DNA of 64,000 nucleotides, taken from contig NZ_QTNQ01000014.1 of the NCBI RefSeq assembly GCF_018424695.1, positions 1-64,000 of the forward strand, written 5' to 3'. Numbering within the stretch: the first letter of the stretch is position 1; the number at the start of each line of letters is the position of its first letter. The DNA comes from Vannielia litorea. GTDB taxonomy: Bacteria; Pseudomonadota; Alphaproteobacteria; Rhodobacterales; Rhodobacteraceae. Position numbers and translations under genes: made by a program. Below, piece after piece: positions 2,173 to 61,652 of this stretch. Under the pieces are notes generated by a model. That model ran no database searches and had not been told where the DNA came from. It was given only the letters and a program-made list of their open reading frames with translations.

Positions 2173-4518
2173 ATGTCTTCTTCCGCCCATGCCAACGATC
2201 ACCATCACGATGAAGGTCGAAACGATAGCTGCTGCGGAGGCGGTGGAAACTGCGGCGACATCGCTCCGGCGACGCCTGCGCCATCGGTCGGGCGAAGCTA
2301 TCAGGTTTCCGGTCTCGACTGCGCCGAAGAAGTAGCGATCCTGAATAAAGTCGTCGGCCCGAAGGTCGGCGGAGCAGAGCATCTGGCTTTCGACGTCATC
2401 AACGGGCGGATGACCATTCTGGACAGCGCGGACCGTGTAACTGACGACGAGGTGGCGCAACTGGTTGCAACCACCGGCATGAGTGCGAAACCGTGGGATG
2501 CAGGAACCGCCTCCGAAGATCAGGCGGCCCATCTCGCCCGACAGCGGCTCTTCACGGCGCTGAGCGGCGGCTTCTGGGCGGCGGGCTTTCTCTGGCACAT
2601 CTTTGAGACCGGCATGGGCGGGGCCCTATTCCTGTTCGCGGGTCACGGAGAGTCCACCATGCCGCTGGCCGAGGCGGTGCTCTTCGCCGTCGCGATCCTG
2701 TTCGGTGTCTGGCTTGTGGCCCCAAAGGCCTGGTCCTCCGCGCGGCGTCTTTCGCCCGACATGAACCTCCTCATGGTGGTCGCGGTGGCGGGAGCCATCG
2801 GCCTCGGCGAGTTCTTCGAGGCGGCGACGGTGGCCTTCTTCTTCTCGCTGTCGCTCTACCTCGAAAGCTGGAGCGTCGGGCGCGCGCGGAACGCGGTTTC
2901 AGCGTTGCTTGACCTGGCGCCGCAGACGGCAAGGGTTCTTTATGATGATGGTTCTGAAGCAGACGTGCCGGCTTCCGCTGTTGCCATCAATGCACGGTTC
3001 GTGGTGCGCGGCGGCGACCGCATCCCACTGGATGGTGAAGTTGTAGATGGGGCAGGGGCCGTCGATCAGGCGCCGATCACCGGCGAAAGTGCGCTGGTGC
3101 CGAAGGAGCCGGGTGACGAAGTCTACGCTGGAACGATCAACGGCGAAGGGACGCTGACGGTGCGCGCGACCAGGGCGGCCTCCGACACGGTGCTCGCCAA
3201 AATCATCCGCATGGTGGGGGACGCTCACGCCCGCCGGGCGCCCGTGGAGCAGTGGGTCGCGAAGTTCGCGCGTATCTACACTCCCATCGTCATGGCTTTG
3301 GCCGTCGCCATTGCGCTGGTACCGCCGCTCGTCTTCGGTGGAGCTTGGGACTACTGGTTTTACAACGCGCTCGTTCTTCTCGTGATCGCCTGTCCCTGTG
3401 CGCTGGTCATCTCGACGCCGGTTTCCATTGTTGCAGCGCTGACGGCCTCGGCGCGGGCGGGGGTTCTCATCAAGGGCGGAGCCTATGTCGAGGCTCCGGG
3501 CCGGACGACGGCTCTGGCGATGGACAAGACCGGAACCATCACGATGGGTGAACCGGAGGTGGCCGCCGTGCATCCACTTGGCGGGGCCTCGGCGCGCGAT
3601 CTTATGACGCTGGCGGCCGCACTCGAAGCGAGGTCATCGCATCCGCTGGCCCGTGCCATTCTTGCGCGGGCCGAGGCAGACGGCATCGCGGTATCAGCGG
3701 CCGAGGATACGCGCACCGTGCCGGGACGGGGGCTGGAAGGACGGGCAGGGGGACGAGAGGTCTGGCTTGGCTCCGACCGGTTCGCCGAGGAGAAAGGGTT
3801 CGGCAGCGCCATTCCGGCGGACCTCCGTGACCGGATCGAAGGGGCCGGCAGCACACTTGTGGCCGTCGGTGACAGGACCGGCGTGACCGGCATTCTCGAA
3901 CTGCGCGACCGCATCCGCCCCGACGCCAAGGGGATTGTCGCACGTCTGCACGCGCAGGGCGTGAAAACCATCGTCATGCTGACCGGCGACAACGAATGCA
4001 CCGCACGCGCCGTCGCGGCCGATGTCGGCATCGACGAGGTGCGTGCCGAACTCTTGCCCGAGGACAAGGTAACGGCCATCGAGGAATTGGTCGAAAGCCA
4101 CGACATGGTGGCGATGATCGGCGACGGGGTGAATGACGCACCGGCCATGGCGCGCGCCCACTACGCCATCGCCATGGGCGCCGTCGGGTCCGACGCGGCC
4201 ATCGAGACAGCGGACATCGCCCTGATGACGGACGATATCGGCAAGGTACCGTGGCTCATCGGCCATTCACGCCGCGCCATGTCGATCATCCGCCAGAACA
4301 TCGGCGTTTCACTGGCGACGAAGGCCGTTTTCGTCGTCGCGACGGCATTCGGGATGGCGTCGATGTGGGGCGCCATCGCGGCGGATGTCGGCGTCTCGCT
4401 TCTCGTGGTGGCCAATGCATTGCGCCTGCTCAACGGCCACAAGGCAGGTGCGCCGCCATCCGGCGGTGAACAGATTGGTGAACAGATGGCAAGCGGCGCT
4501 CTTGCACACGGGCATTGA
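2173..4518 (+). CDS. zntA: Heavy-metal P1B-type ATPase, Zn2+/Cd2+/Pb2+ exporting type
   Basis: A membrane pump that exports divalent soft metals from the cytoplasm at the cost of ATP; 781 aa, a usual length. The first 35 residues are rich in His and Cys (DHHHDE, DSCCGGGGNC). A heavy-metal-associated fold follows with DCAEE near residue 49-53, where the usual second Cys is Glu, a variant seen in Zn/Pb pumps. Membrane CPC is at residues 407-409 and the phosphorylation motif DKTGT at Asp451; TGDN and GDGVNDAPA form the ATP-binding part. The last helices contain DVGVS, the Asp-Gly pattern of P1B-2 (Zn/Cd/Pb) pumps, instead of the YN/MxxSS pattern of copper pumps. It is preceded by a Zn/Cd/Pb-type MerR promoter. 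Call as family is firm; metal preference is from motifs. Confidence 0.93.
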   Translation: MSSSAHANDHHHDEGRNDSCCGGGGNCGDIAPATPAPSVGRSYQVSGLDCAEEVAILNKVVGPKVGGAEHLAFDVINGRMTILDSADRVTDDEVAQLVATTGMSAKPWDAGTASEDQAAHLARQRLFTALSGGFWAAGFLWHIFETGMGGALFLFAGHGESTMPLAEAVLFAVAILFGVWLVAPKAWSSARRLSPDMNLLMVVAVAGAIGLGEFFEAATVAFFFSLSLYLESWSVGRARNAVSALLDLAPQTARVLYDDGSEADVPASAVAINARFVVRGGDRIPLDGEVVDGAGAVDQAPITGESALVPKEPGDEVYAGTINGEGTLTVRATRAASDTVLAKIIRMVGDAHARRAPVEQWVAKFARIYTPIVMALAVAIALVPPLVFGGAWDYWFYNALVLLVIACPCALVISTPVSIVAALTASARAGVLIKGGAYVEAPGRTTALAMDKTGTITMGEPEVAAVHPLGGASARDLMTLAAALEARSSHPLARAILARAEADGIAVSAAEDTRTVPGRGLEGRAGGREVWLGSDRFAEEKGFGSAIPADLRDRIEGAGSTLVAVGDRTGVTGILELRDRIRPDAKGIVARLHAQGVKTIVMLTGDNECTARAVAADVGIDEVRAELLPEDKVTAIEELVESHDMVAMIGDGVNDAPAMARAHYAIAMGAVGSDAAIETADIALMTDDIGKVPWLIGHSRRAMSIIRQNIGVSLATKAVFVVATAFGMASMWGAIAADVGVSLLVVANALRLLNGHKAGAPPSGGEQIGEQMASGALAHGH

Positions 4519-5129: not shown

Positions 5130-5888
5130 TCAGGCAAACCGGCGGCGAAGAGCCACGTTGATGCCCTCGATAGCGATCACCATGGCGATCACGGCCAATG
5201 TGACGCTTGCTGCCTTTTCGTACTGGAACGAGCGCACATAGGTCTGGATGTAGAACCCGATCCCGCCCGCGCCGACGATGCCCAGGATCAGCGACTCGCG
5301 CAGGTTCAATTCGAACCGAAAGATGGTGTCACGTGCGACGACCGGCGCCATCTGCGGCCAGATCGCATACCTCAGCTGCGCCAAGGGCGCGGCGCCGGCG
5401 CTCTCCAGCGCGGCAATCGGCGCGCGGGAGACGCCGTCGATCGCTTCGGCGTAGAATTTCGCGAGCATGCCGGTGGCATGGAAGGCGATCGCGATGATGC
5501 CGGGCAGGGGACCCAGGCCCACCGCGCCCACCATGAGCATCGCCACCAGAATCAGCGGGATGGCGCGGATGAAGGCGAGCAGCGTGCGGACAGGGCGGTA
5601 GAGCGCCGGCGACACCATCGTCTCGGATGCAAGTATCCCGAGGGGTACCGACAGGAGGACCGCGCCCAGAGACCCCAGGATCGCGATGCGCAGCGTTTCC
5701 GCGCTGCCCTTCACGATCTCGTTCATCACGGTCGGATCGGGCGGGACCATCCGGCCGAGGAAATCCGCGATCCGGGGGCCGGCGGACAGGAGGCGCGACA
5801 GGTCGACATCGGTCGTGGCGAACGACCAGAGAACTGCACCCGCGACCAAAGCCCCGGCCGCGAAACCGCCAAACCCGCGCGACCGCAT
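5130..5888 (-). CDS. PhnE/PtxC-like ABC transporter permease
   Basis: Inner-membrane permease of the phosphonate/phosphite importer family (binding-protein-dependent transport), 252 aa. It has an N-terminal helix, a TLRIAILGSLGAVLLSVP segment typical of PhnE permeases, and a cytoplasmic EAA-type loop near residues 160-190 (ALESAGAAPLAQLRYAIWPQ). The ATG overlaps the stop of the upstream ATPase gene by one base, so translation is probably coupled. Family resemblance is to PhnE, but the genetic setting (MntR, di-haem protein) makes phosphonate an uncertain substrate. Confidence 0.85.
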   Translation of the reverse strand: MRSRGFGGFAAGALVAGAVLWSFATTDVDLSRLLSAGPRIADFLGRMVPPDPTVMNEIVKGSAETLRIAILGSLGAVLLSVPLGILASETMVSPALYRPVRTLLAFIRAIPLILVAMLMVGAVGLGPLPGIIAIAFHATGMLAKFYAEAIDGVSRAPIAALESAGAAPLAQLRYAIWPQMAPVVARDTIFRFELNLRESLILGIVGAGGIGFYIQTYVRSFQYEKAASVTLAVIAMVIAIEGINVALRRRFA

Positions 5889-6670
5889 CAGGTCACCGCC
5901 CGCAAACCGATGGCCGGCAGGGCCGTCGTTTCGCGATAGAGGTCCGCGGTCGCGACATCGCTCAAGTCTCCGACAGCCACGTCGAAGGCGATCCGGCCAT
6001 CGCGCATGCCCACGATACGATCGGCGAAACGCCGCGCGAGGTCGGGCTGGTGCGAGGAGAACAGCACGGTCGCGCCACGCGCGCGCGCAGCACCGGTCAG
6101 CAGCGTCAGGATTTCCGCGGCGCGGGCGGGATCGAGATTGCTGACGGGCTCGTCGGCAAGGATCAGGCGCGGCTCCTGGGCGAGGCATCGGGCGATGGCC
6201 ACACGCTGCCGCTGCCCACCGCTGAGGCTGTCGACCCTACGCTCGGCCAGATCGGCGATGCCGCAATCAGCGAGTGCGGCGCGCGCCACCTCCAGGTCGC
6301 GTGGCAAGGGAGAACCGAGGGCCGCGCGCAAGGGCGACATGCGGCCAAGGCGCCCGTTCAGAACGTTTCGCAGCACTGAAGAGCGTTCGACCAGCGCGAA
6401 TTCCTGAAAGACAAAGCCGATATCTGGCCGGCTGGCGCGCGAAGGCGGATGGTCTGGATCGAGCGGCGCGCCGAGGACCGAGACCCGACCGCGCCAGCCG
6501 CGAAGACGCCCGTCGAGCAAGGCCAGTAGTGTCGTTTTCCCGGCCCCCGAGGGTCCGAGCAGCGCGGTGCTTTCGCCTGCAGGCACCATGAGCGACACAT
6601 GGTCCAATGCCGGTAGCCCGGCGCCCTGATGGACGAAGCTCAGATCGCCTATTTGCGCCGCGGCGCTCAC
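5888..6670 (-). CDS. PhnC/PtxA-like ABC transporter ATP-binding protein
   Basis: Cytoplasmic ATPase subunit of the importer, 260 aa. Walker A is GPSGAGKTT at about residues 39-47, the signature is LSGGQRQRVAIAR and Walker B is LILADEP, followed by the switch histidine (SSHQPDLA). The start is GTG, overlapping the stop of the binding-protein gene in a GTGA. The C-terminal stop overlaps the permease start. All three transporter genes are therefore translationally coupled. Confidence 0.9.
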   Translation of the reverse strand: MSAAAQIGDLSFVHQGAGLPALDHVSLMVPAGESTALLGPSGAGKTTLLALLDGRLRGWRGRVSVLGAPLDPDHPPSRASRPDIGFVFQEFALVERSSVLRNVLNGRLGRMSPLRAALGSPLPRDLEVARAALADCGIADLAERRVDSLSGGQRQRVAIARCLAQEPRLILADEPVSNLDPARAAEILTLLTGAARARGATVLFSSHQPDLARRFADRIVGMRDGRIAFDVAVGDLSDVATADLYRETTALPAIGLRAVT

Positions 6671-7542
6671 CCGAGGAGTCCGTAGCGGCGGGCCATGTCG
6701 CGCACCCCGTCATAGGCAGCGGGGTCCGCTCGGACATAGCCGTCGGGTCCGTAGAGGTAGCGCAGCAGGTCGCGGTTGCCGGCTTCGTTGAGGCGCATCA
6801 TCGCATCGACGAACCGCGACCGAAGATCTGCGTCCAGTCCCGGTCGCGCGATCACCACGTGGCTGGGGATTGGTTCGCTCTCGGCGATCCAGATGACCTC
6901 GGCCTGCTGTTGCGGGGTGAGAAGGAGGTCGGCGTACTGGCTCGCGCCGGCGGCCTCGACAAGGCCCTCGGCCATCGCCTGCATCGCCTGCTGATATCCG
7001 CCCGCGAAGAAGATGCGACCGAAAAAGGCGTCCGCGTCACCGGGCCCGGCAACCAATCCGGCCTCGACGAACTCGGCCAGAGGATAGAGATAGCCCGATT
7101 CCGAGATCGGGTCCGCAAAAGCGATATCCTTGCCACCGAGATCAGCAAGCGTTTCGATCCCGCTGTCGCGGCGCACGAAGATCCGGCCGGTGTAACTCGG
7201 CGCGCCGCGATAGACTTCGGACAGCAGAGGCACTGCGCCGATCTCGGCCTCGGCCAGCACGAAGGGGAGCGCGCCCATGAAAGAAATGTCGGCGTCACCG
7301 TTCCGCAGCGCCTCGACGGCCGCGGCGTGGTCGATGGTGACGAAACCCTCGACCGGTACGCCGATCTGATCCGCCAGCCAACCGGTGATGGCCGCGATGT
7401 CGCCGAGCAATTTTTCGGGGTTTTCCTGGGGAATGAAGGCGAGGCGCAAGCCTTCTTGCTGTGCTGCAAGCCGTGTTCCCAAGGACACGGCGCCCGCGGC
7501 GGACAGGATCAGCGTTTTTCTGCGGCTCAGACGGATCGACAT
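6667..7542 (-). CDS. PhnD/PtxB-like periplasmic substrate-binding protein
   Basis: Periplasmic binding protein of the phosphate/phosphite/phosphonate family, 291 aa. A signal peptide (RRKTLILSAAGAVSLG...LAA) is followed by the family pattern LRLAFIPQENPEKL, then DADISFMGALPFVLA, YTGRIFVRRDSGIETLADLGGK and FADPISESGYLYPL. That pattern places it firmly in the PhnD-like group, whose members bind a range of small oxyanions and other ligands. Its start overlaps the stop of the di-haem gene by one base. The ligand cannot be read from sequence; an MntR-controlled context suggests a metal-related ligand (inference). Confidence 0.85.
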   Translation of the reverse strand: MSIRLSRRKTLILSAAGAVSLGTRLAAQQEGLRLAFIPQENPEKLLGDIAAITGWLADQIGVPVEGFVTIDHAAAVEALRNGDADISFMGALPFVLAEAEIGAVPLLSEVYRGAPSYTGRIFVRRDSGIETLADLGGKDIAFADPISESGYLYPLAEFVEAGLVAGPGDADAFFGRIFFAGGYQQAMQAMAEGLVEAAGASQYADLLLTPQQQAEVIWIAESEPIPSHVVIARPGLDADLRSRFVDAMMRLNEAGNRDLLRYLYGPDGYVRADPAAYDGVRDMARRYGLLG

Positions 7543-9425
7543 CAGAACGCCCTTTCTTCGATTGTGTCGGCCGCATCCCTGAACGCGGTCCAGTGTGCCT
7601 CGGCCGTCTCCCAGTCTCCGGCGCGCACGGCGGCACCGACCTGGGCCAATCGCTCGGCAAGTGCATAGACCTCTGGCCGACCGGCAAGGTTGGACATCGT
7701 GCTGGCATCGGCCGAGAGGTCCGCCGCGACCGTATCCGTCAGGAGCAGGATGTGCTCTGCGTCCCGCCGGGGCAGCAGCGTATCGATTGTCGAAGCGAAG
7801 GTCGTCAATTCAGAGAAGGCGAGGCGGAAGGACGTGTTCTCGGCATCGAAAGTCTCATAAGGCTCATCAGCTGAGCCCACCGCTTCGAGGTATGCGGTGA
7901 GGTCAGAGCGCTGGGCATCAGTGAGATCGAGCGATTTCGTCTCGTCGAACCAGTCCACGACAGCAGCGAGGGTCGGCAGCGATCCGTCGTGGAAGTATGG
8001 CGCAGTGTAGACCGTCCCGAGCAAGGTCGGCGTGTCGAATGCGCTCGCCCGCGCACCCTCGTAGGGCGGACTGGCGGACCCGATGTCATGCGCCTGACGG
8101 TCGAGGAAGTTGCCGTCCGGCACATGACAGCTGGCGCAGGAGCGGTCGCCGAGTCCCGCCAATGGCCGATTGAAGATCTCTTCGCCGCGCCGCGCGGCCT
8201 CCGGTGCTGCGTCTGTCAACCTGCCATCCGCAGCCAGCATCGAATTCTGCAGGAAGTCGAACTCCAGCATATAGGCCAAGAGCGCGTCGAGCATGAAGGG
8301 CGTCGGTTCGGCACCGCCGAATTCGTTGACGATCACGTTGCGGGTGAAGTCGCGCAGTGAAGCAAACCGACCGTCGCGGCCATAGGGCCCTGTGAAGCGC
8401 AGGCCGCGCAGGCTTGGGATATCGAGCGGGTCGTCTCGTCGGTCGTTGAAGATCGGATTGAAGAAGGCGCCGTCCACGTCGATTGCCCCGGGCTGATGGC
8501 TGGCGCCGGGAATGAACAGACGCTGGTTCACGTCCGAGCGATTGTGACAGGTTGAACAGGCGATCCCGAGGTCGCGCGCTGGGCTGCCGAAGATTTGCGC
8601 GCTGTCGAACAGCATGTCGCCGTAAGCGACAATCGGCAGATCGGTTTCATCGATGCCCTGCGCCTCGAAATTGAGGACGAGCCGGGGCAGGGGATCCTGG
8701 TCGAAGATGTCGGACCCCGGCGGCAGGCTCGGTGGCACCTCGATGTCGCGTCCGCTGATCACAGCCGTCTCAGGCAGCGGGCTGAGCTGCTGCCTCGGAG
8801 CGAAGTCGTCCACAAGATAGTTCTCCGCGAGATAGTCAGAGATCACCGCTCGTGCCGTGACCATCGTTTCGCGGTCTGGTGGCGTGGTGCCTGCTCCGAG
8901 AACACCGGCGGACCCTGTGCTACTGTTAAGTTCCAGCCAAGCAAGACCGATCCGGCGTGATGCCTTAGGATCGGCGGCGGCAACGCCGTCAGCGAAGGCG
9001 CGGTAGAGTTCGCGAGCGGTCCCGACCGCTTGCTGCGCGCGTGCCGGGTCGTCAACGTCCAGTGCGCGGCCCAGCTCTTCCTCGATCCTGAGCGCGATCA
9101 ACCTCGTCGCGGCGGCGAAGAGGGACTGTCGATCCCGTCGCGCCATTGCGTCCAGTAAAGGCCCGGTTTCGATGTCGCTTTTCTCACCCAACCAGGTCAG
9201 CGCGTCCGCGGAAAACTCCGAGTTTCGGTAAGGTTCGGACCAGGCGGCCTCGACGTCGTCCCAAGGTAGCGGCTCCAGATTTCCGAGAAACAACGTCAGA
9301 CGGTAGGCTGCCGCGTCCGGAAGCCATGGGGCTTCTTTCGCAGGTGTCGCGATGGCCGGCCCGAACGAGATCATCGCGCCGGCCAGAGAGAAAATCACGA
9401 ACCCAAGTAGCTTCCGGAACACCAT
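7542..9425 (-). CDS. Di-haem MauG/cytochrome c peroxidase-like protein with N-terminal extension
   Basis: Periplasmic di-haem c-type protein, 627 aa. The signal peptide runs to about residue 27 (ATPAKEA). The first 250 residues form a helical region unlike classical CcpA, with many A, E, D and R residues. The C-terminal half is MauG/CcpA-like: haem motifs CSTCH (C290-H294) and CASCH (C430-H434), with FNPIFNDRRDDPLDIPSLRG and TPTLLGTVYTAPYFHDGSLPTL, a typical pattern near the second haem. Typical CcpA proteins have about 330 residues, so this is nearly double. ATG 9425 is chosen because it yields the leader; longer frames add none. It heads the coupled operon with the PhnD/C/E genes. It may oxidise or release a ligand or metal for uptake, or detoxify peroxide (inference). 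Confidence 0.8.
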   Translation of the reverse strand: MVFRKLLGFVIFSLAGAMISFGPAIATPAKEAPWLPDAAAYRLTLFLGNLEPLPWDDVEAAWSEPYRNSEFSADALTWLGEKSDIETGPLLDAMARRDRQSLFAAATRLIALRIEEELGRALDVDDPARAQQAVGTARELYRAFADGVAAADPKASRRIGLAWLELNSSTGSAGVLGAGTTPPDRETMVTARAVISDYLAENYLVDDFAPRQQLSPLPETAVISGRDIEVPPSLPPGSDIFDQDPLPRLVLNFEAQGIDETDLPIVAYGDMLFDSAQIFGSPARDLGIACSTCHNRSDVNQRLFIPGASHQPGAIDVDGAFFNPIFNDRRDDPLDIPSLRGLRFTGPYGRDGRFASLRDFTRNVIVNEFGGAEPTPFMLDALLAYMLEFDFLQNSMLAADGRLTDAAPEAARRGEEIFNRPLAGLGDRSCASCHVPDGNFLDRQAHDIGSASPPYEGARASAFDTPTLLGTVYTAPYFHDGSLPTLAAVVDWFDETKSLDLTDAQRSDLTAYLEAVGSADEPYETFDAENTSFRLAFSELTTFASTIDTLLPRRDAEHILLLTDTVAADLSADASTMSNLAGRPEVYALAERLAQVGAAVRAGDWETAEAHWTAFRDAADTIEERAF

Positions 9426-9441
9426 GACCTCCAACAAAAAG

Positions 9442-9455
9442 TTAGCCGTGGCTAA
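9442..9455. promoter_or_regulatory. DtxR/MntR-type palindrome
   Basis: TTAGCC-GT-GGCTAA is a perfect inverted repeat of the DtxR/MntR class (half-site TTAGCC). It lies 17 bp upstream of the di-haem gene and about 58 bp upstream of mntR, in the only gap between the two divergent units. The MntR protein encoded next to it is the obvious candidate ligand. Confidence 0.75.
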
Positions 9456-9513
9456 TTTATCTACCCGAAGCAAACAAGTTGTCAATCCTTGTGTCTCAGG
9501 GCAGACTTGCGAA

Positions 9514-9984
9514 ATGACCAAGCCGCAATCCCATGAACGCGAGACCTTTGAACCTGTGGAACGCGCGCCGGAGGCGCAGGCGGAAGGCTTTGCGATCGTG
9601 CGGCAAGCGCATGAAAGCGAGATGGCAGAGGACTATGTGGAATTGATCGCGGAGCTGATCGAGACCCGCGGGGAGGCCCGACCGGTCGATATCGCCGAGC
9701 GACTCGGAGTGAAACCACCCACTGTCACGAAGAACATTTCACGACTCAGGAGCGCGGGCCTCGTTCGCCGAGAACGCTATCGAGCGGTGTTCCTAACCGA
9801 TGAAGGGCAGGCATTGGCCGAGAAGTGTCGGCGCCGGCACCGGATTGTAGTCGCGTTCCTTCTAAGCCTTGGGATCGATGAGGAGACCGCGGAACGCGAT
9901 GCGGAAGGAATTGAGCACCATGTGAGCGAAAACACCTTGAACGCATTTGAGCGTGCGTTGCGGAACGCCCAAAGCGGCGGTTAG
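9514..9984 (+). CDS. mntR: MntR-like manganese-responsive transcriptional regulator (DtxR family)
   Basis: DtxR-family repressor, 156 aa, close to the length of enterobacterial MntR. An unstructured N-terminal 30 residues precede a winged helix (RPVDIAERLGVKPPTVTKNISRLRSAGLV at about 57-85) and then the metal-binding dimerisation domain with RHRIVVAFLLSLGI, ERDAEGIEHHVSENTL. The E..H and E..EH residues are the usual metal ligands. There is no SH3-like third domain, as in MntR. The ATG at 9514 is preferred since upstream sequence overlaps the operator. It is divergent from the di-haem/ABC operon and probably represses it and itself when Mn is sufficient. Confidence 0.88.
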   Translation: MTKPQSHERETFEPVERAPEAQAEGFAIVRQAHESEMAEDYVELIAELIETRGEARPVDIAERLGVKPPTVTKNISRLRSAGLVRRERYRAVFLTDEGQALAEKCRRRHRIVVAFLLSLGIDEETAERDAEGIEHHVSENTLNAFERALRNAQSGG

Positions 9985-27955: not shown

Positions 27956-29415
27956 AGGCATTGGGGCTGAGGCTGCAAACGCAGATTGCTCTGCTTGTGA
28001 TCGCGGTGCTTGCGCTTGCGCAGATCGTGAGTTTGAGGCTTTTCGTGGATGAACGCGCGATGGCTGTCGAGGCGGCGATCGCCAACGAAGCAGCTGGCAG
28101 GGCGGCGAACGTTGCGAAGCTACTGGATTCGGCACCCTCGCACCTGCAGGACGACATCGTCAGTGCGGCGAATTCGCCGCTTGTTCAATTCGAACTTGGC
28201 GATGAACCCAGAGTTACACACGGCAATCATGATGTTATCGGCGGCGTCGAGTCCCGCATTCGTGCCTTGCTGAACGACGGCTATAGCCGGGACGTTCGGG
28301 TCGAGGTGCATGAAGCCGAGCAAGGGGTGCTTCCGCTGCCAAATCTTTCGCCGGAATTGGCCGAGATGCACGCGCAGATGATGCGCGGCACTCTTACCAC
28401 CGTTGAAATGGAACTCTCCATCGCGATATCCGGCGGCCAGTGGCTGAACGTCGGAACGCGGTTCGAGCGCCCGCCTGTCCAGTGGTCGACGCCGGCGATG
28501 GCGGGCTTCGGACTATCTGCCGCGCTCCTGCTGATCGCGGGGTTTTGGTTCCTGCTGTCTCGCGTAACCAGCCCACTGAACGCACTCGCCGTCGCAGCCG
28601 AACGTCTCGGGCGCGGAGACGCGGAGGGTGAGCTTCCAACGACCGGACCGAAGGAGGTTCGCGATCTGACGGCCGCGTTCGGAATGATGCAGACACGTCT
28701 GTCGCGATTCATTCGTGATCGGACCCACATGTTGGCGGCGCTCGCACATGATCTCCGTTCGCCGCTGACCGCAGCGCGCGTTCAGGCCGAAATGGTCGAC
28801 GATGACGAGACGCGCGCCAGTCTGGTCGCGTCGCTGACGGAAATGGAGGACATGGTCGAGGCCACGCTCGCCTACGCGAAGGGTGTAGGCCGGGATGAAG
28901 AGGTCCTAGAGACAGATTTGGCGGAGTATCTCGAGGATCTAAACCAGAATATGCAAGGCTCATTCGACCTCGCTGACGGGCCGTCTCTCGTTTTTTCCAT
29001 GAAGCAAGGTGCCATGCGGCGCGCTCTGAGGAATCTGATCGAGAACGCGGTTGCTTACGGACGAAATCCCCGGGTCAGTTGGCGCCCATCGGGGGAGTAT
29101 GTTGTCATCGAAATCGAGGATGACGGCCCGGGAATTCCCGATGGCGAACTTGAGAATGTCTTTGCCCCATATCACAGGCTGGAAGCGTCGCGGTCGCTCG
29201 AGACTGGCGGGCACGGCCTGGGCCTGTCGATCGCGAGAAGCATAATTCTCGAGCATGGCGGCACAATCTCTCTTGCCAACAGGCCGGAGGGGGGGCTGCG
29301 CGCGACGGTGTCGCTGCCCTGGCAAAGCCAAAACTCCGGTGAGTCCGGAATGCCCGAGACCGGGGCCGCTCGACAGTCGTTTACGAAGAAACACCGAAAG
29401 GAGTGCATCGCATGA
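27952..29415 (+). CDS. Sensor histidine kinase (first two-component system)
   Basis: Inner-membrane kinase, 487 aa: a first helix (residues 10-30), a periplasmic sensor of about 150 residues, a second helix near 180-205, HAMP, then HisKA with His266 in LAHDLRSPLTAAR and an ATPase domain with NLIENAVAYG, DDGPGIPD and GGHGLGLSIA. The sensor contains SSPL/NSPLVQFEL and MHAQMMRGTL segments also found in the paralogue at 56072. Its last bases overlap ccmF (ATGA), an unusual kinase-to-cytochrome-assembly coupling. Confidence 0.92.
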   Translation: MKALGLRLQTQIALLVIAVLALAQIVSLRLFVDERAMAVEAAIANEAAGRAANVAKLLDSAPSHLQDDIVSAANSPLVQFELGDEPRVTHGNHDVIGGVESRIRALLNDGYSRDVRVEVHEAEQGVLPLPNLSPELAEMHAQMMRGTLTTVEMELSIAISGGQWLNVGTRFERPPVQWSTPAMAGFGLSAALLLIAGFWFLLSRVTSPLNALAVAAERLGRGDAEGELPTTGPKEVRDLTAAFGMMQTRLSRFIRDRTHMLAALAHDLRSPLTAARVQAEMVDDDETRASLVASLTEMEDMVEATLAYAKGVGRDEEVLETDLAEYLEDLNQNMQGSFDLADGPSLVFSMKQGAMRRALRNLIENAVAYGRNPRVSWRPSGEYVVIEIEDDGPGIPDGELENVFAPYHRLEASRSLETGGHGLGLSIARSIILEHGGTISLANRPEGGLRATVSLPWQSQNSGESGMPETGAARQSFTKKHRKECIA

Positions 29416-31412
29416 TCCCCGAGATCGGACATTTTGCTCTTGTCCTGGCATTGAGCCTGGCATGCGTTCAGGGCGTGTTGCCGATACTGGGAGCGGCGAC
29501 GGGGAACAGGGTGTTCATGGCATCCGGCCTGTCGACATCGATTGGGCAGGTCGTGCTCATCGGGATCGCCTTCGCGGCACTCATGCGCTCCTTCATCGTG
29601 AGCGATTTCACCGTTCTCAACGTCGTCGAGAACTCCCATTCGCTGAAACCGATGATCTTCAAGGTCGCCGGCACATGGGGCAGCCACGAGGGTTCGCTCC
29701 TTCTATGGGTGCTCATCCTCGCCGTCTTCGGGGCCGGCGTAGCCCTCTTCGCGCGGAACGTCCCGGCCGGGCTGCTGGCCCGGACGTTGTCGGTTCAGGC
29801 CTGGATCAGCATCGGTTTCCTGTCCTTTCTGCTCCTGACATCGAATCCCTTCGATCGCGTGTTTCCGCCGCCGCTCGACGGAAACGACCTCAATCCCCTG
29901 CTGCAGGACATTGGCCTGGCGATGCACCCGCCGCTTCTCTACCTGGGGTATGTCGGGTTCTCGATCGTCTTTTCCTTCGCGGTCGCAGCCCTGCTTGAAG
30001 GCCGGATAGATCCCGCTTGGGCTCGCTGGGTCAGGCCATGGACGCTTGCGGCGTGGATGTTCCTGACGGCCGGAATCGCGCTCGGCAGCTGGTGGGCCTA
30101 CTACGAGCTCGGCTGGGGCGGCTGGTGGTTCTGGGACCCTGTGGAGAACGTCAGCTTCATGCCATGGCTGCTGGGAACGGCATTGCTGCATTCCGCGATC
30201 GTCACGGAAAAGCGTGACGCCTTCAAATCCTGGACGATCCTCCTCGCGATCCTCACCTTTTCGCTGTCTCTGCTCGGCACTTTCATCGTGCGCTCGGGGC
30301 TGCTCACCTCGGTTCATGCCTTCGCCGTGGACCCGGAGCGCGGTCTCTACATTCTCGGTTTGCTCGGGTTTTCCATCGGCGGCTCCCTGGCCCTGTTTGC
30401 CTGGCGCGCTCCGGCGATGGAGCCCGGCGGGCTGTTCCGTCCGATCAGTCGGGAGGCCGGGCTTCTTCTGAACAATGTTCTGCTGGCGACGGCGACGGGG
30501 AGCGTGCTCGTCGGCACCCTCTATCCACTCTTCACCGAGGCCTTCTCCGGTGACAAGGTGTCCGTCGGCCCGCCCTATTTCAACGCGGTCTTCATTCCTC
30601 TGATGTTGCCGCTGGTGGTCGCAATGGGGATCGGGCCGTTCCTGAGTTGGAAGCGCGCGGACCTGAAAGGGGTCGGCCAGCGCCTCTATGCCGTGGCGAT
30701 GGTATCTGCCGTGGTCGGTCTGGCGGTATGGTATGTCGCGCGCGGAGGCCCGGTGCTCGCTTACGCGTCCATCGCCATAGCGGCCTGGCTCCTCGTTGCG
30801 ACATGCCGCGAGTGGGCATCGCGGGTGAAGCTGTTCGAGGCGCCGCTTTCGACAAGCTGGGCGCGGGCCAAGGGACTTCCGCGCTCGGCCCACGGGATGA
30901 GCCTTGCGCATGCCGGTCTTGCGATCGCCATGTTCGGCTTCATCGGTTCGACCGCGTGGAAGAGCGAAGAGATCGTCTTCGTCGAACCGGGTGAAACGAT
31001 CGCGATCGCCGGGTTCGAAGTCCGTTTCGACGGCGTCGAGCGGGTGCAGGGGCCGAACTACATTGCCGACCGAGGCACGCTCGCGGTGTTCCGGGGCGGC
31101 GATCCCGTCACAACGCTTTTTCCCGAGAAGCGGTTCTATCCTGCCGCAGAGAGCCAGACGACCGAAAGCGCTATCCGTTCGACGCCGGCCGGCGACCTTT
31201 ACGCGTCGCTGGCGACCCCGGCGTCGGACGAGGCGGCTGCCAGCGGTGCGTGGACCTTGCGGATCCTGTACGAACCATTGGTCAATCTCATCTGGATCGG
31301 GTCGGTGCTGCTCGTCTTCGGCGGGGCCGTCTCCCTGTCTGACCGGCGATTGAGGATCGGCGCGCCGCGCCCGTCCCGTCAGCACGGTGCCGATCCTGTT
31401 CCGGCCGAGTAA
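29412..31412 (+). CDS. ccmF: Cytochrome c haem lyase subunit CcmF
   Basis: Large inner-membrane subunit of the System I haem lyase, 666 aa, with about 14 helices. The WWD region is clear: GTWGSHEGSLLLWV, AMHPPLLYLGYVG and the tryptophan-rich block ELGWGGWWFWDPVENVSFMPWL. It attaches haem to apocytochromes in the periplasm together with CcmH/I. ATG 29412 gives the ATGA overlap with the kinase. ccmABCDE are not present in this window. Confidence 0.95.
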   Translation: MIPEIGHFALVLALSLACVQGVLPILGAATGNRVFMASGLSTSIGQVVLIGIAFAALMRSFIVSDFTVLNVVENSHSLKPMIFKVAGTWGSHEGSLLLWVLILAVFGAGVALFARNVPAGLLARTLSVQAWISIGFLSFLLLTSNPFDRVFPPPLDGNDLNPLLQDIGLAMHPPLLYLGYVGFSIVFSFAVAALLEGRIDPAWARWVRPWTLAAWMFLTAGIALGSWWAYYELGWGGWWFWDPVENVSFMPWLLGTALLHSAIVTEKRDAFKSWTILLAILTFSLSLLGTFIVRSGLLTSVHAFAVDPERGLYILGLLGFSIGGSLALFAWRAPAMEPGGLFRPISREAGLLLNNVLLATATGSVLVGTLYPLFTEAFSGDKVSVGPPYFNAVFIPLMLPLVVAMGIGPFLSWKRADLKGVGQRLYAVAMVSAVVGLAVWYVARGGPVLAYASIAIAAWLLVATCREWASRVKLFEAPLSTSWARAKGLPRSAHGMSLAHAGLAIAMFGFIGSTAWKSEEIVFVEPGETIAIAGFEVRFDGVERVQGPNYIADRGTLAVFRGGDPVTTLFPEKRFYPAAESQTTESAIRSTPAGDLYASLATPASDEAAASGAWTLRILYEPLVNLIWIGSVLLVFGGAVSLSDRRLRIGAPRPSRQHGADPVPAE

Positions 31413-36941: not shown

Positions 36942-38324
36942 TTGAACATTACGAGACGAAACGTCCTCTTGGGCGGGGCGGCGACAGCCGCCCTCCCGAT
37001 CGTTGCGGCCGCCGAAACGCCGGCGGACGTCCTGCCTGCCGTTGCGACCGACGTGCAAATGCTCCCCGAGGGCTATGGCAAGACCCGGGTCTGGTCCTAC
37101 GGCGGCGTTCTGCCGGGCGAGGAAATCCGCGTGCCGCAGGGCGGCCGTGTGCGGCGGCGGCTCGTGAACGACCTCGATCAGGCGACATCCACGCATTGGC
37201 ACGGAATCCGCATCGACAACGCGATGGACGGCGTGTCCGGCTTGACCCAGGAGGCCGTGGTGCCGGGCGCGTCCTTTGACTACGACTTCGTGGTGCCTGA
37301 TGCGGGCACCTACTGGTATCACGCCCACAACCGTTCCTTCGAGCAGGTGGCCCGCGGTCTCTACGGCGCATTGATCGTCGAGGAACGCGAAGCGCCCGAT
37401 GTCGACCGTGAAGAGGTGCTGATCCTCGACGACTGGCTGATCGATCCCGAAACGGCGCAGCTCGCCGGCGATTTCGGCGCACCCCATGACCTGAGCCACG
37501 CCGGCCGTCTTGGGAACTTCATCACCACGAATGGACAGCCGAACCTCACCCTTCAGGCCAAGCGCCACGAACGGTTGCGCCTGCGGCTGCTCAACGCATC
37601 GAATGCCCGGATATTTCAGCTGCAGCTGTCCGGTATGGAAGGGTGGCTCGTGGCCCTGGACGGTATGCCGCTGCGCGAGCCGCAAACGGTTCGCGAGCCT
37701 ATCGTCCTGGGGCCCGCACAACGGGCCGATGTCGTCGTCGATATCACGGCGGACAGCGGCGAGGTGGCACATGTCGTCTGGATCGACGGATCGAACAGCT
37801 ATTCTCAGGTTGCCTTCGAAGTCCGTGACGGTGGCACCCGGTCCAGGCGCGATGCCATTCTTCCCCTGCCGCCCAATTCACACGGGATGCCGCTTCTGTC
37901 GGCCTCTAGGCCGTTGACGCTCCGCATGGAGGGGGGCGCGATGGGCGGGCTGCGCGAGGCCAGGATGAATGGCGAGATGCAATCCATGGGCGATCTTGCG
38001 GCGGCCGGACAGTTCTGGGCGTTCAACGGGGCCGTGGGCGGCATGGAGGGCCCGCCGCTGGCCGAGGTCGCGATCGGAGAGACCCTGCGCCTGACCATCG
38101 TGAACGACACCGTCTTTCCGCATGCGATGCACCTTCACGGGATGCACTTTCATGAAATACTGCCCGACGGCAGTCTAGGAGCCCACCGGGACACGACGAT
38201 GCTCGTGCGCGGAGAAACGCGCGACATCGCTTTTCTGGCTGACAATCCGGGCGATTGGTTGCTCCACTGCCACATGCTGTCGCACGCCGCGTCTGGCATG
38301 ATGACATGGATTCGGGTCACATGA
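36942..38324 (+). CDS. Multicopper oxidase (three-domain, CueO/CotA-like)
   Basis: Periplasmic multicopper oxidase, 460 aa, with a short leader (RRNVLLGGAATAALPIVAAAE). All copper sites are readable: HWHGIR, YWYHAHNR, HAMHLHGMHFHE and HCHMLSHAASGMM, with the type 1 Cys443. It can oxidise Cu(I) or organic donors with reduction of O2. There is only a modest Met cluster (GGAMGGLREARMNGEMQSMG). The start is TTG at 36942 with AAGGAG just upstream. It overlaps the next cytochrome gene (ATGA). Confidence 0.92.
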   Translation: MNITRRNVLLGGAATAALPIVAAAETPADVLPAVATDVQMLPEGYGKTRVWSYGGVLPGEEIRVPQGGRVRRRLVNDLDQATSTHWHGIRIDNAMDGVSGLTQEAVVPGASFDYDFVVPDAGTYWYHAHNRSFEQVARGLYGALIVEEREAPDVDREEVLILDDWLIDPETAQLAGDFGAPHDLSHAGRLGNFITTNGQPNLTLQAKRHERLRLRLLNASNARIFQLQLSGMEGWLVALDGMPLREPQTVREPIVLGPAQRADVVVDITADSGEVAHVVWIDGSNSYSQVAFEVRDGGTRSRRDAILPLPPNSHGMPLLSASRPLTLRMEGGAMGGLREARMNGEMQSMGDLAAAGQFWAFNGAVGGMEGPPLAEVAIGETLRLTIVNDTVFPHAMHLHGMHFHEILPDGSLGAHRDTTMLVRGETRDIAFLADNPGDWLLHCHMLSHAASGMMTWIRVT

Positions 38325-39862: not shown

Positions 39863-42370
39863 ATGACGGCGTCCAGAGTAAGTTTCAACGTTGAAGGCAT
39901 GACGTGCGCGTCCTGCGTCGGTCGCGTCGAAAAGGGGCTGTCCGGGCTCGAAGGTGTCAGTGAGGTTTCTGTCAACCTGGCGACCGAGACCGCGACTGCG
40001 ACGATCGATGATCCGCCGACGCTGAAAGATATCGCGGCCGAACTCGACAGGCTCGGCTACCCGGGCCGCAGGTCCAAGGTCACACTGAGTGTAGCCTCGA
40101 TGTCCTGCGCGTCCTGCGTCGGAAGGGTGGACAAGGCGCTGGAAGCGGTTCCGGGTGTTCTGTCGGTTTCTGTCAATCTTGCCGCGGAGACCGCGACGGT
40201 TGAGTACCTGGACGGCGTCACCAACCCCGCGGCGCTGATGGCGGCGTCCGCCGAGATCGGTTATCCGGCCGAGATCGCGGAGGCGCATGTCAGCCAGACC
40301 CGCGGCGAGCGGAAGGCGGAAGAGGCGCAAGCTCTTGCGCGCCGGGTGGTTTTCGCCGCAATCCTGACTTTGCCGGTCTTCGTGCTCGAAATGGGGGCGC
40401 ATCTGATCCCGGCCTTTCACATGGCGATCGAGCGGAGCATCGGAACGCAGACGTCCTGGCTGATCCAGTTCGTACTCGCGACGATTGTTCTCTTCGGACC
40501 GGGACTCGCATTCTTCACGAAAGGCGTGCCAGCGCTCCTGAGGGGCGCGCCGGATATGAATAGTCTCGTGGCCGTCGGCACCGGGGCTGCGTGGGTTTAC
40601 TCGGTTGTGGCAACATTCCTGCCTGCTCTGCTCCCCGAGGGCGTCCGCGCCGTCTATTTCGAAGCCGCCGCAGTAATTGTCGTCCTGATCCTCGTCGGAC
40701 GCTGGCTCGAGGCCCGGGCGAAGGGCCGTACCGGCGCGGCGATTCAGGCGCTGCTGGGCTTGCAGGTTCGAACGGCGCGTGTCCTGCGCAACGGCGCAAG
40801 TGTCGAGGTGGACGTCGACGACCTGGCGGTGGGCGATGTGGTTGTCGTCCGGCCCGGCGAGCGGATCCCGGTCGATGCGGAGGTGACCGACGGTTCCAGC
40901 AACGTAGACGAAAGCATGATCACGGGAGAGCCGGTCCCCGTCCGGAAGGAAAACGGCGATACGGTGACGGGTGGCACGGTCAACGGCACCGGTAGCCTGA
41001 CCCTGCGCGCTCGCCGCGTGGGTGCCGACACGACGCTGGCCCAGATCGTCCGCATGGTGGAAGAGGCGCAAGGCGCCAAGCTCCCGATCCAGGGACTGGT
41101 CGATAGGATCACGCTCTGGTTCGTGCCTGCGGTGATGGGGCTCGCCGCGCTGACGGTGGCCGTTTGGCTGGCCGTTGGACCCGACCCGGCGCTGACCTTC
41201 GCGCTGGTTGCTGGCGTCTCGGTCCTGATCATCGCCTGCCCCTGCGCCATGGGGCTGGCGACACCGACCTCGATCATGGTTGGCACCGGGCGTGCCGCTG
41301 AGATGGGCGTCCTGTTTCGCAAGGGCGATGCGCTACAGGAACTCTCCGAGGTCGGCGTGATCGCGCTCGACAAAACCGGAACCGTCACTGAGGGCAAGCC
41401 AGCTCTCACCGAAGTCGTGACGGTCGAGGGCATGTCGCGGGACGAAGTGTTGCCGCTCGTTGCCGCGGTCGAAGCCTTGTCCGAACATCCCATCGCCGAG
41501 GCAATCGTGATGGGCGCACGGAGCGAGGGGCTGGCCGTTCCCGAGGCATGCGAGTTCCGGTCCGAAACCGGCTATGGCGTCGCCGCCAGCGTCGGCGGGC
41601 GCGAGGTGCTGGTCGGCGCGGACCGCTTCATGGCTCGCGAGAAGATCGACATCGGCGCCCTGGCCGACACCGAACGGACACTGGCCGAACGCGGCCGGAC
41701 CGCGCTCTACGCCGCCGTCGATGGCCGGATCGCCGCGGTGATCGCCGTCGCCGACCCGGTGAAAGCGGCCAGCCGGGCTGCCATCGAGGCCCTGCATGCG
41801 CGCGGTTTCAAGGTGGCGATGATCACCGGCGACAAGAAGGAGACCGCCGAGGCCATTGCCCGCGAAACCGGCATCGATCGTGTGATCGCCGGGGTTCTGC
41901 CCGACGGGAAGGTTGCGGCGCTCGACGAGCTGAGGGCAGGAGGCCGCAAGATCGCTTTCGTCGGAGACGGCATTAACGATGCACCCGCGCTCGCCCATGC
42001 CGATGTGGGCATCGCGATCGGCACCGGAACCGATGTCGCCATCGAGTCCGCCGACGTGGTGCTGATGTCCGGCGACCTGAGGGGCGTGGTCAACGCCGTC
42101 GAGGTTTCAAAACGGACGATGACCAATATCCGACAAAACCTCGCCTGGGCCTTCGGCTACAACACCGCGTTGATCCCTGTGGCCGCAGGTGTGCTGTTCC
42201 CGGCGTTCGGCCTGCTTCTGTCGCCGGTCTTCGCGGCAGGTGCCATGGCCTTGTCCTCGGTGTCGGTTCTGACGAACGCCCTGCGCCTTCGCCGGATACG
42301 TCCGGTGATGGACGAACGGCGCCCCGCAGCGCGCGGCGCCGTCGAAGCAATCCCGCAACCCGCAGAATAA
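39863..42370 (+). CDS. copA: Cu(I)-exporting P1B-1 type ATPase
   Basis: Cytoplasm-to-periplasm Cu(I) pump, 835 aa. Two N-terminal HMA domains: GMTCASC (Cys15/18) and SMSCASC (Cys82/85). Membrane CPC at residues 459-461, DKTGT at Asp503, [12 protein letters not shown] and [10 protein letters not shown]. The last helices carry [12 protein letters not shown] and MALSSVSV, the YN and MxxSS residues that define Cu(I) pumps. It is followed by its presumed regulator 10 bp downstream. Confidence 0.96.
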
Positions 42371-42860: not shown

Positions 42861-44378
42861 ATGAAGGTCATATCCAGACGATCCTTCCTCGCCGCCTCGA
42901 CAGGGGTAGCGGCAACGCTCCTGTCCTCGTCCCTGGGAGGGCGACCAACGTGGGCCGCGCAGGCACCCATGTCGTTGCGGGCCACGACACGGATCATCGA
43001 GGTCAATGGACGCGCTGCCACGGTCAAGGGGCTGCTCAACAGCACCGGACGCCCGGGCCTCGTTCTGGACCCTGGCACGAGGTTTCACGTCGACCTGACG
43101 AATGATCTCGCCGAGGAGACGATCGTGCACTGGCATGGCCAGATTCCGCCGAATACGCAGGATGGTGTGTCGAACACCAACCTGATGATCGCGCCCGGCG
43201 AGTCGCGGACTTTCGACTTCGCGCCGAGGCCGGGGACCTACTGGATGCATGCGCATGTCCCGGCGCAGGAGATCGATCTGCTTGCCGCGCCTCTGATTGT
43301 AAGAAGCGAAGAGGATGTGCGGGCCGACCGACAGGAAGTGGTGATGTTTCTGCATGATTTCTCGTTCAGGTCGGGAGAGGAGATACTGGACGATTTCACC
43401 GGCGGGATGGCAATGGAACACGGCGACGTGCAACAGGGCGGTCGGATGGAAGCCACGCCCCGCCGGATCGTCGGCATGCACAGCGGCGATCCGATGGCGG
43501 CAACCGGCATGGACAATGGCGGGATGTCAATGGCGGGCATGGACCATGGTGGCATGACCATGGACCTCAACGATTTCGATTTCGACGCCTATCTTGCGAA
43601 CGACCGGACGCTGGACGATCCCGAGACGGTCCCGGTCGAAATGGGTGGTCGGGTGCTGCTGCGTGTCATCAACGGCGCTTCGATGACCGCGTTCTGGATC
43701 GACCTCGGAAGCGCTCAGGGCCGACTTGTCGGTGTGGACGGGGATCCGGTCGAACCCTTGGCAGGATCGCGCTTCGGGCTGGCCATGGGACAGCGCCTCG
43801 ATATCGAGATTGACATGCCTTCCGATGGTGCGGCGTTGCCAGTCTTAGCGCTTCGTGAAGGCGCGCGAGAGAGAACAGGTGTCATTCTTGCGCCCAAAGG
43901 AGCGAGCGTATCGAAAATTGGCGGGCATTCTGACGCAGACCATCCTGCGTTTTCCGGCGACATGAGTCAGGAACTCGCACTCCGGTCGCTGCACCCGCTC
44001 GCCGAGCGACCTGCCGACCGGACCCACATGGTGATGCTCGGCGGGGCAATGTCGCCCTATTCCTGGACGATCAATGGTCAGCTTTGGGGAAAACACACGC
44101 CGATCGCAGTGCTTCAGGGCGAACGTGTCGAGATGATGTTTCACAACATGTCGATGATGGCGCATCCGATGCATCTACACGGCCATGTCTTCCAGGTCGT
44201 TGACATCAACGGAACCCGCATCGCAGGCGCTGTCCGCGATACGGTTCATGTGCCCGCGATGGGGATGGTGACCATAGCCTTCGATGCGGGCGAAGTGGCG
44301 CCATGGATGCTGCATTGTCACCATATGGCGCATATGGCGACGGGCATGATGACGGAACTGGATGTCAGAGCCACTTGA
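42861..44378 (+). CDS. Tat-exported multicopper oxidase (copper resistance CueO/CopA-type)
   Basis: Periplasmic multicopper oxidase, 505 aa, with a Tat leader (ISRRSFLAAST). Copper sites: HWHGQIPP, YWMHAHVP, HPMHLHGHVFQV and HCHHMAHMATGMM, type 1 Cys486. A Met/His-rich segment at about residues 205-235 (GMDNGGMSMAGMDHGGMTM) resembles the Met-rich substrate region of CueO and CopA and fits Cu(I) oxidation. It lies 78 bp after the CueR-like gene. A perfect palindrome follows the stop. Confidence 0.94.
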   Translation: MKVISRRSFLAASTGVAATLLSSSLGGRPTWAAQAPMSLRATTRIIEVNGRAATVKGLLNSTGRPGLVLDPGTRFHVDLTNDLAEETIVHWHGQIPPNTQDGVSNTNLMIAPGESRTFDFAPRPGTYWMHAHVPAQEIDLLAAPLIVRSEEDVRADRQEVVMFLHDFSFRSGEEILDDFTGGMAMEHGDVQQGGRMEATPRRIVGMHSGDPMAATGMDNGGMSMAGMDHGGMTMDLNDFDFDAYLANDRTLDDPETVPVEMGGRVLLRVINGASMTAFWIDLGSAQGRLVGVDGDPVEPLAGSRFGLAMGQRLDIEIDMPSDGAALPVLALREGARERTGVILAPKGASVSKIGGHSDADHPAFSGDMSQELALRSLHPLAERPADRTHMVMLGGAMSPYSWTINGQLWGKHTPIAVLQGERVEMMFHNMSMMAHPMHLHGHVFQVVDINGTRIAGAVRDTVHVPAMGMVTIAFDAGEVAPWMLHCHHMAHMATGMMTELDVRAT

Positions 44379-61068: not shown

Positions 61069-61652
61069 TCAAATCCCTCCTCGGTCTCTGCGAGGGCCGA
61101 GGCAACGGCTGCGCGTGGTTCCAACCCGTCCAACGGCCGGACCGCGGCATCGAGCCGGCGTGCGGCGTTGTAGCCGAGTGCGGCCGCCTCGGTCGGCGCT
61201 TTCCCGTAGGTGGCGACGTATCGCGAGACGAAGCTCGTTGCACCGGCCACGTCCTGCCAATCCCGAGGAAGCTTGCCGGCGGTCATCACGATGCTGTCCG
61301 GACCAAGCGGCGCCAGCCCGTCGACCGCCTCCGGCGCGGGACCGACGACCACGACAACGTTCGCCAGTGCCGCGGGTCTGCCGCGCAAGCCTTTGACTTG
61401 ACCCGTCATCTCCGGGGGCAGCGGCAGGACCTGGACGTCGACCCCACCGAGATGGCCGTCAGAGGTCTCGTCGGCATGGCCGTCGCGCTCGTCTGCCGCC
61501 AGCAGGAATCCGTCGACGGCTTCAGCGAGACGCTCCGCACTTTCTTCGCCCGTGACAAGGATCGCGGCAGTGAACTCGTGTGCTACGGCGACCCCCGTCG
61601 AAAGGGCAAATACGAGCGCAGCGAGCCTGATCGAAACAGTCGGCGACCTCAT
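61062..61652 (-). CDS. Hypothetical exported protein, possible periplasmic-binding (type 1) fold
   Basis: Exported protein, 196 aa, leader ending VAVAHEF. The pattern [32 protein letters not shown] followed by [10 protein letters not shown] and [19 protein letters not shown] resembles the N-terminal lobe of branched-chain amino-acid-binding-type proteins; a second part [30 protein letters not shown] fits that fold too. It is shorter than full members (about 350 aa). ATG overlaps the ATPase stop. Ligand unknown. Confidence 0.55.

Follow-up and report, generated by a model that had tools for sequence, protein, structure and literature searches.

The mntR-linked operon and its distribution

The window analysed here comprises the first 64,000 nucleotides of contig NZ_QTNQ01000014.1 from Vannielia litorea (RefSeq assembly GCF_018424695.1). 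Between positions 5130 and 9984 it carries a five-gene cassette, composed of a gene for the manganese (Mn) regulator MntR and, divergent from it across a gap of 88 bp, a four-gene operon encoding a di-haem protein and the PhnD-, PhnC- and PhnE-like components of an ATP-binding-cassette (ABC) importer. The features of the locus are:

5130-5888, minus strand: PhnE-like permease (TIGR01097, 241 bits, above the cut-off of 217)
5888-6670, minus strand: PhnC-like ATPase with a GTG start (ABC_tran match; TIGR02315, 209 bits, below the cut-off of 266)
6667-7542, minus strand: PhnD-like binding protein with an altered pocket (PF12974, 184 bits; H72, E148, Y183, H228, Q39)
7542-9425, minus strand: di-haem protein of 627 amino acid residues (CCP_MauG; alignment A1; model m42b6711985eb)
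9442-9455, no strand: palindrome TTAGCCGTGGCTAA, a probable MntR operator, in the 88-bp gap between mntR and the di-haem gene
9458-9485, minus strand: promoter-like elements TTGACA (9480-9485) and TAGATA (9458-9463) with 16-bp spacing, directed into the di-haem gene, predicted from the sequence
9514-9984, plus strand: mntR, 156 amino acid residues (NF008273, 203 bits, above the cut-off of 153; PDB 2h09; Mn ligands)

Within the operon each stop codon overlaps the following start (TGATG, GTGA and TGATG). A preliminary description of this locus had proposed translational coupling of the four genes and a perfect palindrome between mntR and the di-haem gene, and both are borne out; the word "fused" in its title might be misunderstood, as the genes are coupled and there is no fusion protein. 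Its observation is thus confirmed, and its interpretation, metal or metallophore uptake under Mn control, is partly supported.

A search of genome contigs with the di-haem protein yielded 75 homologous loci. Most belong to what we take to be marine Rhodobacterales, others to Oricola, Hoeflea, Ahrensia and some mixed metagenome-assembled genomes (the orders being presumed), and a few species occur twice. In all 75 loci a divergent mntR lies at a distance of at most 1 kb. The conservation of the four-gene block, a check suggested earlier, was examined in this set, and the full order together with mntR is present in 67 loci. Seven of the eight incomplete loci (L035, L036, L037, L040, L054, L083 and L106) have a contig end within the operon; in the eighth, L084, the di-haem gene passes into the last part of phnE (L084:9722-9931), an apparent internal operon deletion or misassembly. 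The di-haem stop overlaps the PhnD start in 62 of the 62 loci with both ends aligned.

In PLSDB the di-haem protein matched 140 plasmids, and in 43 cases the match covers 80% or more of the protein. Plasmids of Phaeobacter inhibens and Marinovum algicola are among the carriers. Five plasmid neighbourhoods (of 40 listed) each contain mntR, a "cytochrome c peroxidase", a PhnD-type protein, an ATP-binding protein and phnE. Among 101 genomes, the own genome and 100 relatives, a near full-length copy was found in two, the own genome and G054, and in none of six congeners. Owing to this patchy distribution the cassette is regarded as accessory and probably mobile. Genome G041 of the same set has two truncated copies (L112 and L113) with mntR (86% over residues 1-149), the palindrome and a di-haem protein cut down to its first 86 residues; one TGA was counted inside their MntR stretch. 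G054 encodes, about 30 kb from its full cassette and on the same contig, a second MntR (L198:5018-5572, 199.5 bits) with a perfect TTAGCCATGGCTAA upstream and no di-haem gene there. Full-text literature searches revealed no description of the cassette in titles or abstracts of the papers listed; subscription journals are mostly outside their coverage, and a description may exist. Two papers on plasmids do not mention mntR, manganese, phosphonate or peroxidase at all.

MntR and the intergenic palindrome

The regulator passes the MntR equivalog NF008273 (202.6 bits, cut-off 153), and its best PDB match is 2h09, an entry named MntR that presumably represents the protein of Escherichia coli. In an alignment to PDB chain 1on1 six Mn-site letters are identical. 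These residues, D8, E11, H77, E99, E102 and H103, are taken by us to form the Mn site of MntR, with numbering and roles assumed accordingly. D8 and E11 are present in 76 of 76 loci and the other four in 75 of 75, one further locus being truncated before them. No other DtxR-type gene above cut-off is found in the genome.

The palindrome TTAGCCNNGGCTAA has a single perfect match in the 4.74-Mb genome, the site in the gap. The only site with one mismatch is located inside an open reading frame of 494 residues and is probably there by chance. At up to two mismatches 38 palindrome-like places per strand were counted, versus 178 for a reversed-pattern control, and a wider palindrome regulon in the genome was rejected. 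Among the homologous loci, TTAGN6CTAA is present in the gap between mntR and the di-haem gene in 74 of 75, with L101 one base off, and occurs 75 times in total over the 1,181,783 bases of these loci. Its recurrence in the gap exceeds chance. An alignment of the gap was reduced to 28 non-redundant rows less than 80% alike, in which L081 is out of register and L100 has an N in the flank. Here the palindrome arms reach a mean modal frequency of 0.92, against 0.67 and 0.50 in the two flanks. The arms and the strongly kept TTGACA are the most constant parts of the gap, and between them lies the TAGATA-like element, which is less well kept.

This layout of palindrome and promoter suits repression. 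Mn-loaded MntR would bind the palindrome, which lies where the di-haem promoter starts, and so close the operon; Mn shortage would open it. Control of the operon by MntR is well supported by sequence: the identity of the regulator, its six Mn ligands and the conserved operator-like palindrome beside a promoter-like element all speak for the idea, already put forward in the preliminary description, that the importer and the haem gene stand under Mn control. Known Mn uptake systems controlled by MntR include the mntH and mntABCD/sitABCD types. Judged from the sequence, the operon is best read as encoding a metal importer repressed by Mn.

The binding pocket and the di-haem protein

The PhnD-like protein affiliates with PF12974 (183.7 bits, cut-off 27) and passes TIGR01098 (142 bits, cut-off 112). 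It misses the PhnD equivalog TIGR03431 (150 bits, cut-off 261), and PF01297, the family of ZnuA and SitA, is absent from its Pfam matches up to E 0.1. In the phosphite-binding protein Te_PtxB the ligands are Y55, Y100, S130, T131, S132 and H160, with Y208 and D22 as cap (PMC5700983, available text). By HMMER alignment these eight residues, in the same order, correspond to H72, Y117, S147, E148, S149, Y183, H228 and Q39. Pocket residues were counted in 79 cassette proteins from 83 loci, leaving out L035, L083, L084 and L106, which lack a long PhnD. The 25 controls are all non-cassette rows of two partly overlapping searches, one of 385 genomes (E ≤ 1e-20) and one of 398 genomes (E ≤ 1e-30), and are therefore those relatives that resemble the cassette profile most. 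The own genome's weak PF12974 matches were uncounted, as L003, L004 and L005 were misaligned at the motifs and L006 and L007 not aligned.

E148, Y183 and H228 are present in 79 of 79 cassette proteins, and H72 and Q39 in all 77 readable ones. No control shares Glu148, Tyr183, His228 or His72 with them; the controls carry Thr (22), Ala (2) or Ser (1) at 148, His at 183 in 23 cases and Tyr at 72 in 22. Hence Tyr55, Thr131 and His160 of Te_PtxB, which are the near-constant oxyanion ligands of the family, are all three changed in the cassette, to His72, Glu148 and Tyr183, and the cap residues Tyr208 and Asp22 are represented by His228 and Gln39. The control L133 has SSSG. The genome that harbours the window also encodes an ordinary PhnD, which carries STSG and has His elsewhere.

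With three oxyanion ligands and the cap Tyr replaced, a phosphorus oxyanion is an unlikely cargo. By comparison of sequences, part of the phosphorus-oxyanion signature is gone from the pocket, and two His and one Glu are new in it. The same comparison gives good support to a ligand that is not a phosphorus compound, and phosphite and phosphonate are likely no longer read. An ordinary phosphite or phosphonate importer acquired by a metal island would fit the matches to PF12974, TIGR01098 and the PhnE equivalog and the retention of three of the six oxyanion ligands, yet it is very improbable, because all 79 proteins have other residues in place of the Thr and His ligands and the PhnD and PhnC cut-offs are missed.

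The new pocket may instead bind a metal. Its His, Glu and Tyr resemble the residue set that we associate with ferric-binding protein and transferrin, and the importer might accordingly take up iron (e.g. ferric iron), tied to MntR through the exchanged needs for Mn and iron, one of them being the iron of the haem protein. Iron as cargo nevertheless appears distinctly unlikely, as the regulator gene next to the operon encodes an MntR whose Mn site is intact. All 79 cassette proteins also have a twin Arg (RR) within 30 residues of the start of the extracted frame, a possible twin-arginine translocation signal.

The di-haem protein consists of a signal-like N-terminus, an N-terminal helical region, a core of the CCP/MauG type with two CXXCH motifs, and a C-terminal helical bundle. 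Its earlier designation as MauG-like holds for the CCP_MauG domain (40.1 bits, cut-off 25.6) and the two haem motifs, whose residues C290, C293, H294 and C430, C433, H434 are invariant in the 28 sequences of alignment A1. It does not extend to the equivalogs, of which MbnH, the top NCBIfam match, reached 46.6 bits (cut-off 363) and MauG 41.7 bits (cut-off 444), nor to the second-haem position discussed below. A RoxA-like stretch is barely above cut-off (27.0 versus 26.7), and among PDB sequences hydrazine synthase gamma matches best (E 2e-10).

At position +16 after the first haem His, a further His is found in 78 of 82 loci, as in the peroxidase 3o5c (the others are Ser in two, Asn in one and no match in one); we take it to be the ligand known as H71 in peroxidases. 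When aligned with 3o5c and 6e1c, 81 of 81 readable proteins of the 82 loci carry a Phe where the former has Met and the latter Tyr. This place is presumably that of the second-haem ligand, Met in peroxidases and Tyr in MauG-like enzymes. Lone homologues of the di-haem core were rejected as functional guides, since the surroundings of L108, L109, L110 and L111 yielded no gene of the cassette. At the Met/Tyr place L108 has Phe and L110 has Tyr, neither with the His at +16, and L109 and L111 have no row in this comparison.

The structural model of the di-haem protein is poor in the core (mean predicted local distance difference test, pLDDT, 63.6), and the VIA rows for this reason concern mainly the C-terminal bundle, for which the model shows a helical bundle of a widespread type. 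As to a possible origin of the helical regions from the M75/imelysin (EfeO-type) family, comparison gave an hhalign probability of 0.1-0.2 and weak Foldseek rows to EfeM/EfeO (E about 2); the N-terminal region received no placement from the Foldseek or hhalign comparison. Trp218 of the binding protein was considered as a cassette-specific target of a MauG-like enzyme and rejected, since Trp is also present in 18 of 25 controls and replaced by Val in three of 79 cassette proteins.

The di-haem protein might serve as a Mn-independent peroxide defence at times when Mn enzymes fail, being merely co-regulated with the importer. Its CCP_MauG domain and the +16 His shared with 3o5c are consistent with this role, which would also be compatible with a Mn-repressed importer. 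The Phe at the second-haem place and the strict coupling of the gene to that of the binding protein argue against it, and we consider it possible though rather unlikely.

Proposed manganese acquisition and comparison with known systems

On one side of the cassette the window contains genes for an L,D-transpeptidase and a P-type ATPase of the cadmium family (2173-4518), and on the opposite side CtaG, penicillin-acylase, Lnt, LspA and ZIP genes; it is a metal-handling island. Further away, two multicopper oxidases and two more P-type metal ATPases are encoded (36942-38324, 39863-42370, 42861-44378 and 61649-63940), as is a haem lyase of the CcmF/NrfE type (29403-31412, 664 bits), by which the island also carries part of c-type cytochrome maturation. 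In the 64 loci of at least 12 kb that were scored for the gene clusters of the window, an L,D-transpeptidase is present in 48, a P-type metal ATPase in 46, Lnt in 39, ZIP in 36, LspA in 32 and penicillin acylase in 28; eight loci have none of the six. In the whole genome, EfaA/SitA-like and ZnuA-like binding proteins (both below the NCBIfam curated cut-offs) and three FUR-family genes were detected, and no Nramp gene above cut-off.

The statement that phn or ptx catabolic genes are missing holds for the part covered: none occurs among 25 window proteins compared with Pfam or in the five annotated plasmid neighbourhoods, other open reading frames of the window being unannotated. Likewise, the annotated proteins, which represent part of the window, include no metallophore, siderophore or TonB-receptor gene, so that the metallophore suggested earlier as cargo finds no evidence here. 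The ligand could also be a small amine-containing or other organic compound, MntR control then reflecting a step that depends on Mn and concerns this compound. The amino group of 2-aminoethylphosphonate is bound in E. coli PhnD by two carboxylates (PMC5700983, available text), and the pocket Glu therefore need not mean a metal. Such a ligand is unlikely all the same, as only the five cassette genes are common to nearly all loci and the genes often seen beside them encode metal ATPases, ZIP, lipoprotein processing and L,D-transpeptidases, some neighbours being unannotated.

We return to the Mn-repressed metal importer. The operon is not filed under a known metal-importer family, because its binding protein has no PF01297 match, nor as a phosphonate importer, because the tested oxyanion ligands are lost; it may work like a binding-protein-dependent metal importer, and Mn is our best guess for the cargo. 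The PhnD-like protein, with a pocket of two His and a Glu beside two Tyr, would capture Mn in the periplasm as ion or complex, PhnE and PhnC would import it, and the di-haem protein might support this, in the periplasm, through an oxidation or electron-transfer step. The cassette is often situated in metal-resistance islands. Cadmium lowers cellular Mn in Streptococcus pneumoniae (PMC4366526, available text), and a spare Mn importer would thus help in such islands. That the cassette as a whole is a mobile, accessory system for Mn acquisition strikes us as evenly poised between right and wrong.

Several observations weigh against Mn acquisition. The oxyanion ligands Tyr100, Ser130 and Ser132 of PtxB are kept as Y117, S147 and S149 (77/77, 79/79 and 79/79 readable cassette proteins), which would still permit binding of an anion, by itself or together with a metal; Tyr at 117, found in 24 of 25 controls too, is not special to the cassette. 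The loss of the cap says little, because its residues vary among ordinary relatives (Tyr in three and Asp in three of 25 controls). The loci are related, some coming from one strain, and the 79 do not represent 79 independent cases. For the binding protein, AlphaFold gives a model (mean pLDDT 67.7) that is weak precisely at the pocket, whose geometry consequently rests on homology. Furthermore, PhnE passes the phosphonate-permease equivalog TIGR01097, and the host already has an EfaA/SitA-like gene. Finally, the alphaproteobacterial genome G184 (93% complete) possesses the four-gene operon (L144, 54-74% identity) behind a different upstream region and upstream gene, with no palindrome upstream of the operon and no MntR found in the genome.

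A more specific form of Mn acquisition would couple uptake to oxidation: using peroxide, the di-haem protein would oxidize Mn(II) to Mn(III) in the periplasm, a transferrin-like PhnD pocket would hold the trivalent ion by His72, His228, Glu148, Tyr117 and Tyr183, perhaps with an anion on Ser147/Ser149, and PhnC/PhnE would import it. Since zinc and cadmium are not oxidizable in this way, such a route would keep its selectivity when heavy metals cause stress, and this would account for its travel in metal-resistance islands. We regard this form as quite improbable. In a variant, the haem protein would oxidize a residue of the binding protein and so complete the metal site, as proposed for CorB and CorA. 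If Mn acquisition is correct, a handful of pocket changes turned a phosphorus importer to metal transport, marine genomes with the cassette are mis-annotated for phosphonate use (plasmid records label its genes cytochrome c peroxidase, phosphonate or phosphite transporter), and plasmid metal islands pair a Mn-supply module with efflux pumps.

Compared with the PhnCDE and PtxABC importers (PtxB: PDB 5jvb and 5lv1), the cassette shares the families of the binding protein, ATPase and permease and retains two Ser and one Tyr of the pocket. It differs in the substitutions of Thr131 by Glu, His160 by Tyr, Tyr55 by His and, in the cap, Tyr208 by His and Asp22 by Gln, as well as in its linkage to mntR and a di-haem gene. 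With MntR-controlled Mn uptake as we understand it, the cassette has in common an MntR with all Mn ligands and a palindrome at the promoter of an importer operon; its importer is, in contrast, not an Nramp protein and its binding protein lacks PF01297. Two CXXCH motifs and the CCP_MauG domain connect the di-haem protein with the superfamily of MauG, MbnH and bacterial cytochrome c peroxidases, from which it is set apart by scores below the equivalogs, the Phe at the Met/Tyr place and the additional N- and C-terminal helical regions. In the systems CorA/CorB and MopE/SACCP, a copper-repressible copper-binding protein is co-transcribed with a di-haem protein (PMC3912023, available text). A knock-out reported there suggests that such a site may form without the di-haem protein, and the same text leaves the role of the enzyme open. 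Unlike the cassette with its MntR and ABC binding protein, CorA is a surface Cu(I) protein containing kynurenine and not itself an ABC binding protein. The MntR-regulated TBDR-pTFP module of Stenotrophomonas combines an outer-membrane receptor with a thioredoxin-fold protein and, as far as the available text goes, has no parts in common with the cassette; it resembles it in being another new MntR-linked candidate for a metal-acquisition module (PMC13217887).

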